Shown: one piece after another, positions 23,145-30,260 of the stretch
Layout of the letters: the number at the start of each line of letters is the position of its first letter
Numbering within the stretch: the stretch's first letter is position 1
NCBI GenBank assembly: GCA_021794275.1
Contig: JAJYRD010000065.1
Span: forward strand, 1 to 47,879
Length of the DNA: 47,879 nucleotides
Source of the DNA: Pseudomonadota bacterium
GTDB taxonomy: Bacteria > Pseudomonadota > Gammaproteobacteria > Acidiferrobacterales > Acidiferrobacteraceae
Direction: 5' to 3'
Made by a program: the position numbers and the translations under genes
The notes under the pieces: model-generated
Database searches by the model: none
Seen by the model: the letters and a program-made list of their open reading frames with translations, nothing else
What the model was told of the DNA's origin: nothing

Positions 23145-23540
23145 ATGAGCGCGGCTTTTCCGGTTAAGGTGGCGGACGAGCGCGGGAAGTGCGGGACCTG
23201 CCCCTCGATCTGCTGCCGATACATCACGCAGAAGATCCCGACGCCGCGGGCGCGTAGCGACTTTGAGCACCTCCTATGGCAAGTGAGCCACCAAGGCGTG
23301 GAGGTCTACCAGGATGAGGACGGGTGGTTCCTGCTCGTGCAGTCGGCGTGCGCGCACCTCGAAGCCAGCGGGGCGTGCGGCATCTACACCGCGCGGCCGC
23401 CGATCTGCCGCGACTACTCCAACGACTTTTGCGAGCGGGACGAGCCCGCCGAACGCCACTTCCGGGTCCATTTCCGCGACTACGCGGCGCTCCTCGACTA
23501 TTGCCGCAAGCGCTTCAAGACCTGGCCACGTCCGGTTTGA
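23145..23540 (+). CDS. YkgJ-like cysteine-cluster protein
   Basis: 131 residues of the CxxCxxCC (YkgJ/YcgN, UPF0153) family, thought to bind zinc or an iron-sulfur cluster. The N-terminal cluster is CGTCPSICC. Further cysteines lie in SACAHLEASGACGIY and RPPICRDYSNDFCER. The ATG at 23145 was chosen because MSAAFPVKV leads straight into the cluster; the upstream extension is Arg/Gly-rich and unlike the family. The role is not established. It is followed closely by, and may overlap, the SRPBCC gene. Confidence 0.85.
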   Translation: MSAAFPVKVADERGKCGTCPSICCRYITQKIPTPRARSDFEHLLWQVSHQGVEVYQDEDGWFLLVQSACAHLEASGACGIYTARPPICRDYSNDFCERDEPAERHFRVHFRDYAALLDYCRKRFKTWPRPV

Positions 23541-23562
23541 AACGAGCCTCCTCATCGCCCTT

Positions 23563-24099
23563 TTGACGGCGATACAGGCCGTGCCGGCCCATGCCCACGG
23601 GCGCCCGAAGATCGCGGTGTCGGTGCGCGGTGATCACTACCGCATGAGCCTCGACCTCGTCCTGCGCGCACCGCTCCACCGCGTCTGGCACGTCATCGCC
23701 GACTACGCCGACATAAAACGGCTGAACCCGGCGGTGAAGAGCAGCGCGGTCATCCGGCGCGACGGCATCACGCTGATGCGCATGCGCATCAGGAGCTGCG
23801 TCCTCTTCATCTGCTTTCCGGTCACGCAGACCGAAGCCATGACGACCGACGGACACAATTGGGTCCGCGGCGTCATCATCCCAAGGCTTTCCAGTTTCCG
23901 GTCGGGGGACTCGCGCTGGCAACTGCGGACGGTGGCAGGTGGCACCGAGGCCCATTTCAGTGCCTCGCTTACCCCCTCGTTCTACATTCCTCCCGTCATA
24001 GGGCCTTGGATGGTCCGGCGGAAACTGCGCGCCGAGATGCGCGAGACCGCGTCGCGCCTCAAGGCCTGGGTCTACGCGAAAACGCCATATGGAGCATAG
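23563..24099 (+). CDS. SRPBCC (START-like) family protein, probably exported; start uncertain
   Basis: The domain begins at GRPKIAVSVRGDHYRMSLDL and has the polyketide-cyclase-like order APLHRVWHVIADYADIKRLN...WVRGVIIPRLSSF. Such proteins bind hydrophobic ligands; none can be named. It is preceded by a signal-peptide-like stretch SLLIALLTAIQAVPAHA with an AHA cleavage site, but in that frame there is no ATG or GTG before it. TTG 23563 is the only usual codon and leaves out the first hydrophobic residues. TTG-AAA-CGA at 23537 in another frame would supply M-K-R if one base were missing, so a frameshift near the start is possible. The last 42 bases lie inside the left 73-bp repeat. Confidence 0.65.
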   Translation: MTAIQAVPAHAHGRPKIAVSVRGDHYRMSLDLVLRAPLHRVWHVIADYADIKRLNPAVKSSAVIRRDGITLMRMRIRSCVLFICFPVTQTEAMTTDGHNWVRGVIIPRLSSFRSGDSRWQLRTVAGGTEAHFSASLTPSFYIPPVIGPWMVRRKLRAEMRETASRLKAWVYAKTPYGA

Positions 24100-24130
24100 G
24101 GCCGATAAAGAGCGAGGCGGCGAGCGCGAG
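24058..24130. repeat. 73-bp direct repeat, left copy
   Basis: Identical to 26247-26319 except at one base (24091 G, 26280 A), an offset of 2189 bases. On the plus strand it encodes the C-terminus of the SRPBCC protein; on the minus strand it encodes an RND-transporter tail. Weaker similarity continues about 19 bases to the left and, after a 6-base in-frame indel, about 9 bases to the right. Confidence 0.95.
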
Positions 24131-24166
24131 GCCGCCCATGACCACGATTCCCCGAAGCGCAAGGGG
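24059..24166 (-). pseudogene. RND transporter C-terminal remnant
   Basis: Reading the minus strand straight after the hipA stop codon, and in the same frame, gives about 35 codons that end in LFIGPMLHMAFSRRPRP and a TGA. This is nearly the tail of the intact RND gene (LFIGPMLYMAFSRRPRP). Before it, PLALRGIVVMGGL resembles the last membrane segment of RND proteins but differs from the intact copy, including a two-residue in-frame deletion. There is no start codon. It is a leftover 3' end, not a gene. Confidence 0.75.
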
Positions 24167-25417
24167 CTACGGTTCTAGCGAGGGAAAGGCGTGCTCGCGC
24201 AATAACCCCGCCTGTTGCAGACCATCACGCCACAGCAACAGCATTTTGGTTCCCGTCTTATGATTGTCCGGGTGATTTCGCATAACATCCGCCAAGGCCC
24301 GTGCCGCCGAATGGACGCCCGAGGCGATGGTCTCCAACTCACGGTCCACATGAACGACTCCGCAGAGCGCCCCCAATTGCGCGAAATCTCGAGATTTGAA
24401 CCATCGCTTCGTGTTGCGCCACATAAGGGCCGGAATATCGTGGGTCGTACCGGTCGGCGAGATGGGAGCGTAAGCTGCCATTGTCACCATATCGTAGCAC
24501 GGTGCCAGTCGCACATCATCGCCACCACCTTGCGGGGAATACAGAACACCGAAGTTCTTCAGATGCGCATCGCCATTGCGCAGAATCATCGCCAACGCGT
24601 ACTGCCGGAAGAACTGCTCGAGCGCCGACATGCGCAATGAACCCTCGCAAAAGGCCACGAGCGTCTTGATGATCCGTTCGACCGACCCCGAGAACTTCGC
24701 CGATGACGGGAGCCCCATGAGCGAGGCCATGTCCTCGAAGGCCAAACGGTTGCCGGCCGTGTCCCGGTCGAATCGCCGAACCAAAAGGAGCCGGCCATCC
24801 TCTGAAAGGTGAGTGTCCGCCGTCTCGATGCCACCCTTTTGCGCCGCCAGCATCGAGTAGAACTCGTTCATGGCCATGCCCGGATACTCCGCATCGGGGA
24901 TCTTGATGATCCAGTCCGCAAGAACCATGGTTCCTTGCGGCGGATCGCCGTCTGCTAGGATCTTCGGGTATCCCCCCGACACGCCGGATTGGTGGGCATA
25001 ACGGCGCAACAACTCGGCAACGAAAGCCGGATCTGTACCGTGGTGCAGCAACGACGAAAAATCCACGGCATCGCGTGCTTGGTCCGGGGAGGCTCCCTCC
25101 GGCACGACGGAAATGGCCCCAATCAGGTGAGCTCCGACAACAGACAAGACCGCCATGTCGCCTGCGGCGTGAACCCTTTTTAGCAGGCCCCGCTCGATGG
25201 TGGTGCGCAAGGGCCCTTCCGGCAGACTGACCTGAAAGACGGGGAATAGATAAGGAGCCACATAGGGGGCCGACCGCATGGGCATGGTCAGTGAGACGGG
25301 AAACCCTGTCTCGCGGTACGTAAACCGGTATTCTCGAGGCGAGGGCTGCTCTAAGAGCCCCGAAAGCTTCCCGTCGGCGTACACGTCAAGGCGCACGGCT
25401 CCCTCCGTCGCCGTCAT
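24167..25417 (-). CDS. hipA: HipA-family serine/threonine kinase toxin
   Basis: 416 residues from the ATG at 25417, chosen because VRLDVYADGKLSGLLEQ matches the HipA N-subdomain and the longer reading lies in hipB. Seen: the N-terminal Couple_hipA domain (residues ~5-105), a Gly/Ser loop SGVSGGYPKI (144-153) at the site of the regulatory phospho-loop, VRRFDRD, catalytic NGDAHLKNFG with Asp283, and the metal-binding CYDMVTM with Asp309. E. coli HipA phosphorylates glutamyl-tRNA synthetase and causes persistence; the target here is unknown. It overlaps hipB by 32 bases. Base composition is less GC-rich than its neighbours and it sits between direct repeats, which suggests acquisition. Confidence 0.87.
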   Translation of the reverse strand: MTATEGAVRLDVYADGKLSGLLEQPSPREYRFTYRETGFPVSLTMPMRSAPYVAPYLFPVFQVSLPEGPLRTTIERGLLKRVHAAGDMAVLSVVGAHLIGAISVVPEGASPDQARDAVDFSSLLHHGTDPAFVAELLRRYAHQSGVSGGYPKILADGDPPQGTMVLADWIIKIPDAEYPGMAMNEFYSMLAAQKGGIETADTHLSEDGRLLLVRRFDRDTAGNRLAFEDMASLMGLPSSAKFSGSVERIIKTLVAFCEGSLRMSALEQFFRQYALAMILRNGDAHLKNFGVLYSPQGGGDDVRLAPCYDMVTMAAYAPISPTGTTHDIPALMWRNTKRWFKSRDFAQLGALCGVVHVDRELETIASGVHSAARALADVMRNHPDNHKTGTKMLLLWRDGLQQAGLLREHAFPSLEP

Positions 25418-25817
25418 CGCTAGCCTGCCCCGTGGGAATTTGCTCTCCAGGTGCCGGCTCGTCGCCCTTTCCCTCGAAGGATGCCGCGTCTTCTTTGCTG
25501 GGCGGAAACCGATTGACCGATCGGCGACCGTGGCGGACCCGCCGACGCGGCTCGCTTGGCGGGCTGTCCTCCTCCCACATATTCTGCTGCAGCAACTCAT
25601 CGAGCGTAGGCTTCGATACTGGAGTCAACGTAATCGTAAGGCCGAGGATATCCGCCACCCGCTCAAGCAGGGACAGCGACACCGCCCCTCGTTGAGTCGG
25701 GGACTCAAGCACCGAGATCGTCTTGCGTGTCACATGCGCCTTGTCCGCCAGCTGTTGCTGGGTCAGGTGCAACGCGATGCGCTGGCGCCGAATTTGATTA
25801 GGCCATTCTGTGTCCAT
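25386..25817 (-). CDS. hipB: HipB-like XRE-family antitoxin/repressor
   Basis: 143 residues. Residues ~8-62 form an XRE helix-turn-helix: IRRQRIALHLTQQQLADKAH, then VTRKTISVLE and LSLLERVADILGL. This is followed by an unusually long, charged and probably disordered tail (residues ~75-143, rich in Pro, Arg, Glu and Asp); E. coli HipB is only 88 residues. HipB binds HipA and represses the operon. An AT-rich repeated element lies right at its start codon. The tail encodes, in another frame, the start of hipA. Confidence 0.87.
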   Translation of the reverse strand: MDTEWPNQIRRQRIALHLTQQQLADKAHVTRKTISVLESPTQRGAVSLSLLERVADILGLTITLTPVSKPTLDELLQQNMWEEDSPPSEPRRRVRHGRRSVNRFPPSKEDAASFEGKGDEPAPGEQIPTGQASDDGDGGSRAP

Positions 25818-25860
25818 AACGTAACTTATTATGTATCATTATCTTATTAAGTACATATAA
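25815..25860 (-). promoter_or_regulatory. Putative hipBA promoter/operator
   Basis: A very AT-rich block at and upstream of the hipB ATG in an otherwise GC-rich region. CTTATTATGTA (25825-25835) and CTTATTAAGTA (25843-25853) form a direct repeat with an 18-base period. CATAA (25815-25819) and TTATG (25829-25833) form an inverted pair. Autoregulation by HipB-HipA is known for the family; this placement is inference. Confidence 0.55.
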
Positions 25861-26246
25861 CTGAACGGTACGCGTGCCATTATGTACCGCATGGAGCCAT
25901 CCTGCAGCCGCCCTGGTAGCACCGCATCATGCCTCGGCCGGGATCGCCGCCCCTGTCGCGTTGTTGGAAACGGCATCCGCACGATACTGTCCTATCGCCG
26001 CACTCGCGGCGACCTCGCCGGCGATCAGCGTGAGCCTGGTGCCGACCCACAGGTCCATGATCTCGCGGCACCATCCTGCATGCATGCGCGGAACCTGCTT
26101 ATACCCATGGGCTGCGTATTCTGGCGAACGCAATAGGGGCCTTTCTATTACATCCTCGGCGTTTCTTACTGATTATTTGCCGCTCCCAACGAAAGTGCTG
26201 CACGCACGCGCCCCGATGGCGTAAGAGGCGCGAGGCCGCCTCCCAT
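25818..26246. other. Non-coding stretch between hipB and the right repeat
   Basis: Holds the hipBA control region at its left end. No confident gene. A minus-strand reading at 25927-26133 (68 codons) has protein-like composition (IMDLWVGTRLTLIAGEVAA) but no recognised family or ribosome site. Just before the right repeat, 26228-26246 resembles the SRPBCC 3' end with several changes (REAASH against RETASR), so a second, decayed SRPBCC tail lies there. Confidence 0.5.
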
Positions 26247-26319
26247 CTCAAGGCCTGGGTCTACGCGAAAACGCCATATAGAGCATAGGGCCGATAAAGA
26301 GCGAGGCGGCGAGCGCGAG
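26247..26319. repeat. 73-bp direct repeat, right copy
   Basis: Matches 24058-24130 with one mismatch. Here the minus strand is the true C-terminus of the intact RND gene, whose stop is at 26248-26250. On the plus strand it repeats the last codons of the SRPBCC gene. The two copies bracket the hipBA segment. Confidence 0.95.
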
Positions 26320-29286
26320 CACGAGCCCGCCCATCACTGCTGTCGCGAGCGGCTTCAGCAGGTCCGTTCCGTGACCCACACCCACCGCGAGCGGCAGAAA
26401 GCCCAGGACATCGGCGGCCATGGTCATGAGGATGGGCCGCAGCCGGCGGCGAGCGGCAAGCTCGATCTGGAGGCGGCCGGGGGGGCTGCGGTAATGGCGG
26501 GCCTGACCGAAGATCAGGATGCCGTTATTGACGACGATCGCGAACACGAGCAAAAGGCCTAAGAACGACGTGCTGTCCAGGGGGATGCCGCGCAGCCAGA
26601 GGGCCGTGAGCGACCCCAAGGCGCTCAAGGCGGTCGCCACGAGGACCGCGAGTGCCGCGCGCTGGGCGCGCAGCTGATACCCGACCAGTACGACCAGCAC
26701 GAGCAGCGCGAAGACCAAGGTGAGCTCCATCTGCGCGAAGCTCTTGGCCTGCTCCTTGTAATAGCCTCCTATGCGAGTAGTGATTCCGTGGGGCAGGGCG
26801 GTCTGGGCGATAAACCCGCGCGCCACGGCGGCGGCCTGGGCAAGCCCCATGGAGCGATGGGGGCGAATCTCGATGTCGGCGAACGGCACCAGGTTCTGGT
26901 GGGTGATGACCGGGACCTGGTGCCGGATGTGAGCGGTGGCGAAGGCCGCGAGCGGGGCGTAGGGGCCGCCTGGGGCATGCACGAAGAGGTTCGGGGCCAA
27001 ACTGCGGCTTATGTCTCCCGATGGGCGCGTGCCGACCGCGATCGGGAGGATCTGCGCGCCACGCAGGAGATAGCCTGCTGGTACCCCCCAATAGGCGGCC
27101 TGGACCTGTTCGCCAAGGAGCGGGGGCGTGAGGCCTCGTTGCTCGGCGCGCAGGCGCGGGGTCAGGGTGATCGCGGGCCCCGCCGAAGAGGTCGCGAAGC
27201 TCACGTTGGCGAATCGATGGCTCGCGACCAGGCGGGTCTTGAGATGCGCCGCATAGGCCGCGAGCGCCGAGACGCTGTGCCCGAAGACCTCGATATCGAG
27301 CGGGGAGTGGGCGCCCGAGAGGTTGCCAAGCTGGGTTACGAGCAACTGATGGAGCTTCAGCATGGAGAGGCTCGGATAGGCGGCACGGAAGCGCGCGCCG
27401 AGTGCACGCATGACCGCCACCGCCGAGGCGCTCGGTTTCAAGGTGAGGACCAGATCGCCCTTGTTCGGGGTCGCCCGCGGGTTGCCGAGGCTTTGGCCCA
27501 CGACCACCGAGGCAGTCGCGACGGCGCGGTCATGGGTGGCAATGGCCACGAGGCCGCGTCCCACGGCCAGGGTCTGGGACGCCGAGCTTCCGACGGTCGT
27601 GCGAAACGGCACGGCTATGACACCCTCGTTCCAGGCGGGCAGGAAGGCGGTCGGCAACACTCGGAAGAGGGCATAGGCCGCGGCCAGGATCGCGATACTG
27701 GCAATGACGCCGAAAAAGGGTTTGCCGAGGGCACGGCGCAGGGTACGCGCGTAGGTCACGCGGGCGCGACGCGCCGGTCGCCAAGCCTTAGAGGAGCGTG
27801 AGTGGCGACCGGCGAGGTAGGTCGCGAGCAACGGGGTCACCGACAGCGCCACCGCCTGGGACACGACTAAGGCCGTGACAAGCGCGATGGCCATCTGGCG
27901 GAACAGGATGCCGATAGTCCCGCCTAAAAGGATGAGCGGGACGAACACGAGCGCCGAGGTGAGCGTCGCGAAAGTCATCATGGGCAAGACCTCGCCTGCG
28001 GCGCGCAGCGCTCGCACGCGCCGCTCCTGCATGCTCCCGGAACCCTGGCCATGGGTCGCTTGCTCAATCACGACAATGGCGTGGTCCACGAGCGCTCCTA
28101 TGGCCGCGGTTATGCCCCCCAAGGTCATGATGTTCAGGCCCAGATGGAGGAAGTGTAGGACCACGAAGGTGCCGGCCAATGACAGCGGAACGACCACGAG
28201 AGTCGCAAGCGCCGTGTCGAAGCGCCGCAAGAAGGCGAGCAGCACCAGGAAGGTAATGACGGTGCCCAGAAAAAGGGCCATCCAGACGTCGTGGAGGCTT
28301 GCCACGATGAGCCGCGACAAATCGTAGTCGCGCACGAGGCGCATGTCATGCGGCAGACCCTTGCGCAAAGACGCGATCGCGCCGCTCACACCCCGCGCCA
28401 CCTGCTCGACGTTGGCGCTTGCCTGGGCGGCGACCTCGATCAGCAGGCTATGCGCCTGATGGGCGACCGCCGAACCCCGTATCCGCGGGGGCGGTCCGAC
28501 CGTGATACGCGCAAGCGACGACAGCGGCACTACGGCCCCGCGGGCGCCCCCCAGAGGGATGGGGAGACGACCGAGCGCGTTCACCCCCGCCGGGCGGCCG
28601 GCGGCGGTCAGTAAAAAGCTGCCATGGAAGCCCGCCATGATACCGCCGAAATAGGGCCCCTGGTGCGCACGCAGGAGGGCTACGACGCGACCGAGCCCGA
28701 GGTGATGGCTTATGAGACGCCTGAGCGACAAGTCGACATGGACCTGCGGCCAGCCGCGACCGATGGAGGCCACGGTGTAGACCCCTGGGACATCGAGCAG
28801 GCGGGGCTTCAGCGTGAAGGCATAGGTCGGCAGCATCTCACTGCTCGTCTTCGCCTGTGAGACCAGGGCGTATTCGGCGAAGGGATAGATGCTCGGCATC
28901 ATGAGCCGCACGCTCATATGCGCGCCAGGGGGCAAGGCCACCTGACCTAGGCGCGCCTCGAGCAACAGATACGCGTTATTGGGCGTGATGGCGCCATTGA
29001 AGAAGACATGGATCTTGGTAAGGCCGTTGCTCGTGGTCGAGCGCACCAGGGTCACGTTCTGCACGCCCTTGGCCGCTTGTTCGAGCGGTTCGGTCACCCG
29101 CACCAGCATCACGTGGACGGGAAGGTAGCCGTCGCTCACGAGCACCGAAATGCGAGGGAAGTTCACGTTCGGAAAGACGCTACGCGGCAGCGCCCGGAAT
29201 GCCACGAAGCCCGCGCCGAGCACGAGGACTGCCACCAGGGCCGTAGTGTAGCGGTTGCCCCAAAGGGCCTCGAGATAGGCCCTCAC
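26248..29286 (-). CDS. RND-family efflux permease subunit
   Basis: Inner-membrane proton-driven pump, 1012 residues. The GTG start at 29286 overlaps the stop of the fusion-protein gene (GTGA) and gives RAYLEALWGNRYTTALVAVL, a normal RND N-terminus (TM1 residues ~12-30). Two large periplasmic loops and about 12 membrane segments are evident. The TM4 proton site reads GALVDHAIVVIEQ: Asp401 is kept, but the second Asp of AcrB-type pumps is His402; Glu408 is kept. TM10 reads NNGILI, without the AcrB lysine. It is between HAE1 and heavy-metal types, so the substrate is not called. Part of the operon yrfG-tolC-MFP-RND. Its 3' end is duplicated 2.2 kb away. Confidence 0.88.
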   Translation of the reverse strand: MRAYLEALWGNRYTTALVAVLVLGAGFVAFRALPRSVFPNVNFPRISVLVSDGYLPVHVMLVRVTEPLEQAAKGVQNVTLVRSTTSNGLTKIHVFFNGAITPNNAYLLLEARLGQVALPPGAHMSVRLMMPSIYPFAEYALVSQAKTSSEMLPTYAFTLKPRLLDVPGVYTVASIGRGWPQVHVDLSLRRLISHHLGLGRVVALLRAHQGPYFGGIMAGFHGSFLLTAAGRPAGVNALGRLPIPLGGARGAVVPLSSLARITVGPPPRIRGSAVAHQAHSLLIEVAAQASANVEQVARGVSGAIASLRKGLPHDMRLVRDYDLSRLIVASLHDVWMALFLGTVITFLVLLAFLRRFDTALATLVVVPLSLAGTFVVLHFLHLGLNIMTLGGITAAIGALVDHAIVVIEQATHGQGSGSMQERRVRALRAAGEVLPMMTFATLTSALVFVPLILLGGTIGILFRQMAIALVTALVVSQAVALSVTPLLATYLAGRHSRSSKAWRPARRARVTYARTLRRALGKPFFGVIASIAILAAAYALFRVLPTAFLPAWNEGVIAVPFRTTVGSSASQTLAVGRGLVAIATHDRAVATASVVVGQSLGNPRATPNKGDLVLTLKPSASAVAVMRALGARFRAAYPSLSMLKLHQLLVTQLGNLSGAHSPLDIEVFGHSVSALAAYAAHLKTRLVASHRFANVSFATSSAGPAITLTPRLRAEQRGLTPPLLGEQVQAAYWGVPAGYLLRGAQILPIAVGTRPSGDISRSLAPNLFVHAPGGPYAPLAAFATAHIRHQVPVITHQNLVPFADIEIRPHRSMGLAQAAAVARGFIAQTALPHGITTRIGGYYKEQAKSFAQMELTLVFALLVLVVLVGYQLRAQRAALAVLVATALSALGSLTALWLRGIPLDSTSFLGLLLVFAIVVNNGILIFGQARHYRSPPGRLQIELAARRRLRPILMTMAADVLGFLPLAVGVGHGTDLLKPLATAVMGGLVLALAASLFIGPMLYMAFSRRPRP

Positions 29287-30260
29287 CGCACAACCCGCAC
29301 CGGAATCCCGGCGCGCAGGCGTGCGACGCCCGTATCGATCACCAGCGCCCCGCGCGCCAATGGGCCCGCCACGAACACCCGCCGGGCACCCATACGCACG
29401 ATCGTCACCCTGACCGGTTGCGCCCGCGCACCGCGCACAACGTAAACCCACGCCCGGCCGTGGCGGACGAGGAGCGCGCTGCGCGGGACCGCGATCGCGG
29501 TACGCGGGTGCCCCAGGAGGTCGAGCCGCAAGACCTGTCCGGGACGCAACCGCCCCCCGGCCCCGCGCACATACGCGCGCACGAGGCCCAGGTCGTCGAC
29601 GCGCGCACCGATGGCGTACACGCGGCCGCGGGAAGCCTCGGCCCGTCCGTGGCGCGCCAAGCGCCGTACCCGCGCGCCGACGTAAAGGCGATCAGCCTCG
29701 CGCACGGTGAGCGAGCAGGTCTCGTAGAGACCCCCCGCGCCGCCGATCGCGACCACATCCGCGCCGCGCGCGAGCAGCACCCCGGGGGCTACCCGATAAC
29801 GCACGGTGCCGGCGAACGGCGCGCGCACCGTGCCACGCGCAAGGCGCGCACCGTCGGCGCGCAAGGCGGCAGCATCGGCCTGCCAGCGGGCCTTGAGACC
29901 GCGGGCATGAGCGGGCGTGACGAGGCCTTGGTGCGCCAGGACGCGGGCCTGCTCGTAGACGGTGCGGGCGGCCTCGGTCTGGGCCTCGAGGGCGCGCACA
30001 GTACCGGCGAGACTCAGGGGCAACAGTCGCGCGATGACGGCGCCGGCGGCGACCGCGGTCCCGGGGGCCACGACGAGCGGACCCATGACGGCGTCGTAGG
30101 GGGCCTGGATCACTGCGTGCTCAGGACCGTGAGCGCGGGCGAATACCTGGATCGCCGGCCGATACGATGCCTGGACCGCGCGCGTCCCATGGACCGACAG
30201 GGGCGCGGCGGCGCAAGCGACGACCGGAACGAGTAACAGGGCCGTGAGCGCGCGCCTCAT
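29283..30260 (-). CDS. Periplasmic adaptor (membrane fusion protein) of RND efflux system
   Basis: 325 residues from the ATG at 30260, which overlaps the tolC-like stop by ATGA. The signal peptide is MRRALTALLLVPVVACAAAP; a cysteine near residue 16 could be a lipid site but the lipobox is poor. Order seen: barrel-sandwich half-motif (VIQAPYDAVMGPLVVAPGT), a short alpha-helical hairpin with LEAQTEAARTVYEQARVLA, the second half-motif GTVRAPFAGTVRYRVAPG, then beta-barrel and proximal domains. Shorter than CusB or AcrA (~370-400). It links the RND pump to the outer-membrane channel. Very Arg/Ala-rich. Confidence 0.82.
   Translation of the reverse strand: MRRALTALLLVPVVACAAAPLSVHGTRAVQASYRPAIQVFARAHGPEHAVIQAPYDAVMGPLVVAPGTAVAAGAVIARLLPLSLAGTVRALEAQTEAARTVYEQARVLAHQGLVTPAHARGLKARWQADAAALRADGARLARGTVRAPFAGTVRYRVAPGVLLARGADVVAIGGAGGLYETCSLTVREADRLYVGARVRRLARHGRAEASRGRVYAIGARVDDLGLVRAYVRGAGGRLRPGQVLRLDLLGHPRTAIAVPRSALLVRHGRAWVYVVRGARAQPVRVTIVRMGARRVFVAGPLARGALVIDTGVARLRAGIPVRVVR

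Follow-up and report, generated by a model that had tools for sequence, protein, structure and literature searches.

A hipBA operon between direct repeats of two overlapping gene ends in Acidiferrobacteraceae: probable insertion with long target duplication

Integrative elements such as e14 at icd use the 3' end of a gene as their attachment (att) site and restore that gene upon integration. Insertion with a long duplication of the target has been described for restriction-modification genes of Helicobacter (Nobusato et al. 2000, cited in PMC3874152, PMC3031569, PMC2654758 and PMC1643837), and toxin-antitoxin operons such as ccdO157 form genomic islets (PMC2654758). Here we describe a locus that can be set beside all of these, in a stretch of 47,879 nucleotides (called the window below) from an Acidiferrobacteraceae genome designated G000 (GCA_021794275.1, contig JAJYRD010000065.1, positions 1 to 47,879), in which a hipBA module lies between two 73-bp direct repeats, each consisting of the overlapping 3' ends of an SRPBCC gene and an RND pump gene. 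Long target duplication as such is known, and a hipBA cargo in a convergent gene overlap would be a variant of that process.

As in the integrative elements, a gene end is duplicated at both borders and the gene stays whole, but here no integrase or other element gene is seen and two convergent genes are kept. With the restriction-modification insertions the locus shares a bare addiction-type unit in the chromosome and a direct duplication of the target; a single-copy relative without the insert, a duplication of about 100 bp and a lack of mobile-element machinery are all found here. It differs from them in its cargo (hipBA, against the restriction-modification unit of the original description), in its target, a convergent gene overlap, in keeping two genes whole, and in a site apparently used twice. 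Like the islets it is a lone toxin-antitoxin operon subject to decay (hipA is lost in the relative G006 and both genes are broken in G011), whereas the available part of PMC2654758 mentions no target duplication for ccdO157, against roughly 50-100 bp here. A search of the open-access literature, with subscription papers mostly outside it, found no report of hipBA with a long target duplication, and hipA does not occur in the main text of a paper on Acidiferrobacter mobile elements (PMC8889020).

Of the 73 bases, 72 agree between the two copies (24058-24130 and 26247-26319), the exception being G at 24091 against A at 26280, and the copies are nested in a longer 96-nt match of 93% identity (24035-24130 and 26224-26319, spacing 2189), with the similarity running past the 73 bp on both sides as decayed arms. 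Each copy is at once the 3' end of the SRPBCC gene on the plus strand and of the RND gene on the minus strand. The left one completes the SRPBCC gene (Polyketide_cyc2-like; longest open reading frame (ORF) 23314..24099, plus strand, stop at 24099; Pfam Polyketide_cyc2, E 9.3e-9; true start uncertain, probably near 23540) and runs into a non-coding remnant of the RND 3' end (24100..24146, minus strand), in which a stretch identical to the right copy at 31 of 31 bases gives way to a 6-nt gap and then to decay, with 14 of 30 mismatches over 24131-24160. The right one completes the RND (AcrB-type) pump gene (26248..29451, minus strand, stop at 26248, start uncertain; ACR_tran, E 1.5e-158) and overlaps an SRPBCC 3'-end remnant (26226..26288, plus strand). 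A first-pass annotation of this DNA had described two copies differing at one base, each holding both gene ends, the left completing SRPBCC and the right RND with hipBA between them, and the ORFs and Pfam matches agree with it; the decayed arms outside the 73 bp and an IS fragment next to the right copy (see below) are minor corrections to it. By blastn this is the sole direct repeat of at least 60 bp and at least 90% identity at a spacing of 0.5-5 kb in the window; a comparable pair occurs in one of 60 other loci (497 kb), and a search of the G000 genome returned the repeat sequence at these 2 places only. The left and right copies align with a score of 166, the highest of 1000 dinucleotide shuffles being 42, which excludes a chance origin of their similarity.

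The SRPBCC gene was found in 13 of 18 family genomes; 11 of the 13 belong to the genus and the other 2 to a sister genus. Each species is represented by a single genome, often a metagenome-assembled genome (MAG), and several have a low recorded coverage. Nine of the 13 (G002, G003, G005, G007 on its contig C3, G008, G009, G010, G014 and G016) have an empty junction, at which SRPBCC and RND abut or overlap tail to tail; the overlap, measured in seven of the nine with G014 and G016 left out, is 41 bp in G003 and G007 and 50 bp in G002, G005, G008, G009 and G010. Its 41-bp equivalent in the window (24059..24099) falls inside the left copy, so that the whole overlap is contained in each copy. In the other four genomes the junction holds cargo: G000 and G006 have the window type, which in G006 lacks hipA, and G001 and G011 have a distant hipBA. 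In all four the left and right tails are similar, with scores that none of 1000 shuffles reached (besides G000, 74 against a shuffle maximum of 35 in G006, 43 against 40 in G001 and 38 against 33 in G011). These comparisons support an ancestral state in which the SRPBCC and RND genes lay tail to tail without cargo. The first-pass annotation had surmised as much, and both of the checks it proposed, comparing relatives and looking for other cargo at the junction, turned out in its favour, the former through the single-copy sites without hipBA and the latter through the different hipBA of G001 and G011. Since the two coding ends share this stretch, one of the genes would be truncated by any insertion that left the overlap in single copy.

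Within the module, hipA (24167..25417, minus strand; 416 amino acids from the ATG at 25417, in an ORF open to 25600) encodes a predicted HipA-family kinase toxin with a HipA_C domain (PF07804, E 1.1e-40) and an N-terminal Couple_hipA domain (PF13657, E 1.2e-15). It shares these domains with Escherichia coli HipA (PDB 3tpd), as well as a helix-turn-helix (HTH) antitoxin upstream, a conserved Asp loop and a second Asp motif: its NGDAHLKNF and PCYD align to TDGHAKNF and PFYD of the E. coli protein, and we take GDAHLKNF and PCYD to be the HipA catalytic motifs. In overall sequence, however, the window protein is distant (best PDB match E 1.6e-16). The HTH antitoxin gene hipB (25386..25817, minus strand; 143 amino acids; HTH_3, E 5.4e-9) overlaps the start of hipA at 25417 and scores 37.3 bits against NCBIfam couple_hipB, under the cut-off of 71.65. 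By domains and gene order the pair fits a hipBA toxin-antitoxin module. Upstream of hipB the half-sites TATGTA, GTACATA and TATGTAC (25830..25887), read by eye and partly conserved in G006, are a possible HipB operator; a sigma-70 promoter scan gave 0 promoters, shuffles giving 1.0. An 86-bp piece abutting the right copy (26140..26225, plus strand) corresponds to positions 1-90 of a 2.55-kb insertion sequence (IS) that is complete in G009, and has a decayed counterpart in G006; its inner side faces the SRPBCC remnant. The complete IS, with a Tn5-type transposase (PF14706, PF02281) and a gene matching Pfam DruA (a Druantia protein; E 1.1e-44), lies in G009 at L035:2750-5305 (G009:C2:171749-174304) and at 7 other full-length places. 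Only hipA, hipB and this IS end were recognised in the insert, with no mobile-element machinery. The hallmarks of a classical transposon or composite IS (terminal inverted repeats or flanking IS copies, and a short target-site duplication) were not found: none of the 17 inverted pairs detected joins the two borders, and the one IS end lies within the insert.

A decayed form of the window module is present in G006. Its hipB has 86% protein identity over 133 residues, and it shares the intergenic region and the right SRPBCC remnant; of hipA only the start is left, and the left RND remnant is unrecognisable (20 of 31 mismatches to that of the window). Synonymous divergence (dS) between G000 and G006, counted by a simple script in frames taken from stop to stop, of which two overlap, is 0.34 for hipB (140 codons) and 0.55, 0.46, 0.42 and 0.59 for the flanking RND, ThiC, SRPBCC and CxxCxxCC genes, which would make the module about as old as the G000/G006 split, or perhaps somewhat younger. 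The G006 hipB (L025:3940-4362), kept without hipA, shows a nonsynonymous divergence of 0.079 and a dS of 0.343 against the window hipB; it may still be under selection, or the toxin may have been lost recently. In trees built from RND alone and then from five flanking blocks (partly missing for G008, G005 and G009), G003 is sister to G006 (support 100/99, then 100/100) and G007 to G000 (83/82, then 89.6/85). With G003 and G007 nested in this way, vertical descent would imply that both lost the module; their sites carry no scar, which fits a scarless loss by recombination between the repeats.

In G001 and G011 this junction is occupied by a hipBA oriented like that of the window, with a HipA 36% identical to the window protein over 316 amino acids (G001); in G011 hipA is broken into two ORFs, and there is a change of frame within hipB. 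Similar SRPBCC-tail sequence lies left and right of these inserts, with about 50 bp of duplication detectable. A 6-nt deletion in the SRPBCC tail is present in all 4 G001/G011 copies and in 0 of 11 other aligned sequences, which suggests, as the simplest reading, that this duplication arose in place after the deletion and separately from the window-type insertion. In the HipA tree the G001 protein groups with that of G006 contig C156 (100/100), then weakly (86/88) with G000:C40, and not with window HipA. The C156 module, the closest relative found for the G001 module besides G011 (HipA 79% identical), lies between rpsU and tsaD (genes named by eye). DNA similarity between the two covers hipBA and stops at or near the operon borders, and the rpsU-tsaD site without hipBA in G003, G000 and G007 shows the entry point. 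It seems that a hipBA operon, accompanied by little other DNA, has reached two or more sites, which points to the operon alone as the moving unit.

The intergenic region between these two genes, again named by eye, is variable in the genus. Only 36 bp separate the two matches in G003, and the region holds hipBA in G006 (L195; G006:C156, about 845-2639), an addiction-module antidote (PF21716, E 1.6e-27) with an adjoining Gp49-like ORF below cut-off in G012 (L188; G012:C117:12864-13836), a ClpP-like protease ORF in G013 (L189; G013:C6:65903-68051), and an ORF with an rve match below cut-off in G008 (L190; G008:C77:10457-11907).

The observations at the SRPBCC/RND junction are the empty sites, the duplication, the module common to G000 and G006 and the distant hipBA in the same overlap of G001 and G011. 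We consider it probable, though by no means assured, that a bare hipBA operon inserted into the overlap with a long target duplication, and that loss and conversion acted on it later. A hipBA operon with no integrase or transposase gene of its own would have entered the 41-bp tail-to-tail overlap, with some 100 bp of target being duplicated in the process; SRPBCC is completed by the left copy and RND by the right one, so that neither gene was damaged. Because the coding ends overlap, only insertions that duplicated the overlap would have been tolerated; a long duplication found only where coding ends overlap fits, as far as two sites can tell, such a survival filter and not an enzyme-made repeat. 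We favour an illegitimate event, in which replication either switched template and jumped back by about 100 bp or filled in a staggered break around a captured fragment, and since the inner side of the 86-bp IS end lies towards the SRPBCC remnant, the captured DNA may have broken within an insertion sequence. The insertion in G001/G011 would be a separate event, the repeat core would have been homogenised later by gene conversion in G000, and G003 and G007 would have lost the module by recombination between the repeats.

The repeat of G000 appears to combine two ages. Between its left and right sides the core has 1 of 73 mismatches and the arms 20 of 53 (Fisher p 3.5e-8, which is overstated because the core was delimited by its own identity). 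Because the arms are far more diverged and the insert is decayed in G006, the near-identity of the 73 bp is not simply the scar of a fresh insertion. In its non-coding part the left copy agrees with the right one at all 31 bases, and the corresponding RND stretch differs from the right copy at 2 of 37 positions in G003, 4 of 37 in G007 and 5 of 37 in G006; the chance of 0 of 31 is 0.04 at 10% divergence and 0.006 at 15%. Later homogenisation of the core by gene conversion in the G000 lineage is thereby suggested, not proven, and a site-specific crossover core could give the same picture of core and arms.

Several points weigh against the proposed insertion and its sequel. The act of insertion itself is not seen, and how it was made has to be inferred. 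The case for conversion is modest, the doubly coding part of the repeat being conserved between species anyway (the left copy differs at 3 of 42 positions from G003 and likewise from G007). The duplication signal in G001 and G011 is weaker than in G000 and G006, its margins over the shuffles being narrow (43 against 40, 38 against 33), and ancient conversion between the copies could also have spread the 6-nt deletion, which makes the argument for two separate insertions less strong. In G003 and G007, passage of the locus from one species to another could give the appearance of loss. By eye, no long duplication was seen at the rpsU-tsaD insertion. In a survey of hipA loci, a flanking repeat of at least 70 bp and at least 90% identity occurs in one of 66 rows, which is the window. 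Finally, no donor molecule was found: the 633 plasmid matches to HipA are all below 60% identity, the best listed being 36%, and no viral relative was confirmed among viral contigs.

The survey took in 58 rows from the family and 8 from other families of the order, with three row pairs merged; 8 of 69 HipA_C rows were left out (G007:C138, a near copy of the window, and G012:C143, G006:C9, G008:C64, G016:C8, G006:C179, G003:C9 and G003:C65). Any flanking repeat at E 0.05 was found in 9 of the 66 rows and one of at least 60 bp in 6, in a survey that missed the G001/G011 duplications, so that old ones escape it, and in which contig ends truncate several loci. The idea that long repeats bound the hipA loci of the family as a rule was not borne out. 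Repeats also appeared at L125, L143 and L152, and at L115, where the repeat lies in an HTH (hipB-like) ORF by eye, a design different from that of the window. At L121 (468-610 and 3475-3616; G001:C51) another hipBA family lies between 143-bp repeats of 85% identity, situated where a vapB-like ORF ends and a vapC-like ORF begins (by eye); these are not of the window design and not clearly an insertion scar. The nearest relative found for window HipA, a truncated piece in G016, is 77% identical over 95 residues, one stop included, in one comparison and 69% over 107 in another, and in a class-wide search 8 of 369 genomes match HipA at E 1e-40, none above 35% identity besides the window. A stretch of G016 DNA (L034:4422-4739; G016:C8, in a sister genus) comprises about 220 bp of window-type hipA at 82.5% identity beside an opposite-strand ATPase-like ORF (by eye), a possible trace of a former wider spread.

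The alternatives to insertion of a bare operon differ in how well they survive these data. Integrase-driven elements usually target gene ends and keep the gene whole, and it is conceivable, if unlikely, that the overlap served as attB for a tyrosine recombinase, hipBA being the last remnant of islands whose attP bore the gene ends. The near-identical core between diverged arms resembles an att core, and two distant hipBA cargos occupy one site in the same orientation. However, no integrase gene was seen beside either border in G000, G006, G001 or G011: as the first-pass annotation had noted, none is visible in the window, where none of the 14 PF00589 matches of G000 (two of them below cut-off) lies on the window contig C67, and none was found by eye, without a profile scan, in the junction ORF lists of the other three cargo-bearing genomes. 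Moreover, the inserts hold little but hipBA, with some 40 bp in G001 between the start of the longest hipB ORF and the first recognisable part of the right copy, and the common 6-nt deletion suggests that the second copy arose in place and not on foreign DNA. Homologous exchange, in which donor DNA from a hipBA-bearing relative recombined with the conserved flanks and spread the module, also strikes us as rather unlikely. The module is patchy in the clade of G000, G003, G006 and G007, and in G000 the right SRPBCC remnant resembles G003 (5 of 23 differences) as closely as it does its own left copy (6 of 23), but exchange accounts for spread and not for the first insertion or the duplication, and between G000 and G006 hipB has diverged about as much as the flanks. 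These were the two mechanisms that the first-pass annotation had offered, and neither is established, with no integrase on the window contig and the arms far more diverged than the core.

A single insertion in the ancestor of the genus, followed by a swap of one hipBA for another and by five or more losses, is improbable. It would account for the same site and orientation of both cargos, and the 6-nt deletion is not decisive against it if the copies undergo gene conversion; yet it needs losses in G008, in G010, in the ancestor of G002, G005 and G009, in G003 and in G007, and the grouping of G001 HipA with that of G006:C156, and then weakly with that of G000:C40, leaves the window HipA apart. 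As regards the assembly, contig C138 of the G007 MAG is colinear with positions 18653-46748 of the window for 28,096 bp, from which it differs without gaps by 33 substitutions; one of these, at 24101, lies inside the left copy, leaving that strain with 71 of 73 matches. Because G007 has its own, empty version of the locus on C3 (84-89% DNA identity), C138 probably belongs to a relative of the window strain and entered this MAG by cross-binning. An assembly artefact, which the first-pass annotation had named as a possible refutation, can accordingly be rejected as next to inconceivable: direct repeats commonly misassemble, G000 is in 89 contigs and several related MAG contigs are of low coverage, but the same structure recurs on this contig of a second MAG and, in decayed form, in G006.

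The locus bears on how chromosomal toxin-antitoxin operons come to enter genomes with no vehicle in sight. It does not lend itself to generalisation from the present data, because long near-identical flanking repeats are unusual among hipA loci. It is a tentative and rather doubtful extension that tail-to-tail overlaps could be safe harbours for bare toxin-antitoxin operons moving by long target duplication: both genes would stay whole, the copies would be kept recombinogenic by gene conversion, and exit would be scarless, making such operons minimal mobile elements with recurrent targets. The simple rule suggested by this locus is that a convergent gene overlap makes duplication compulsory, so that such overlaps would be good places for other insertions. 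As one small genus offers empty sites, the duplication, a decayed descendant, a distant hipBA and patchy absence, insertion and excision at a defined site become testable in it.

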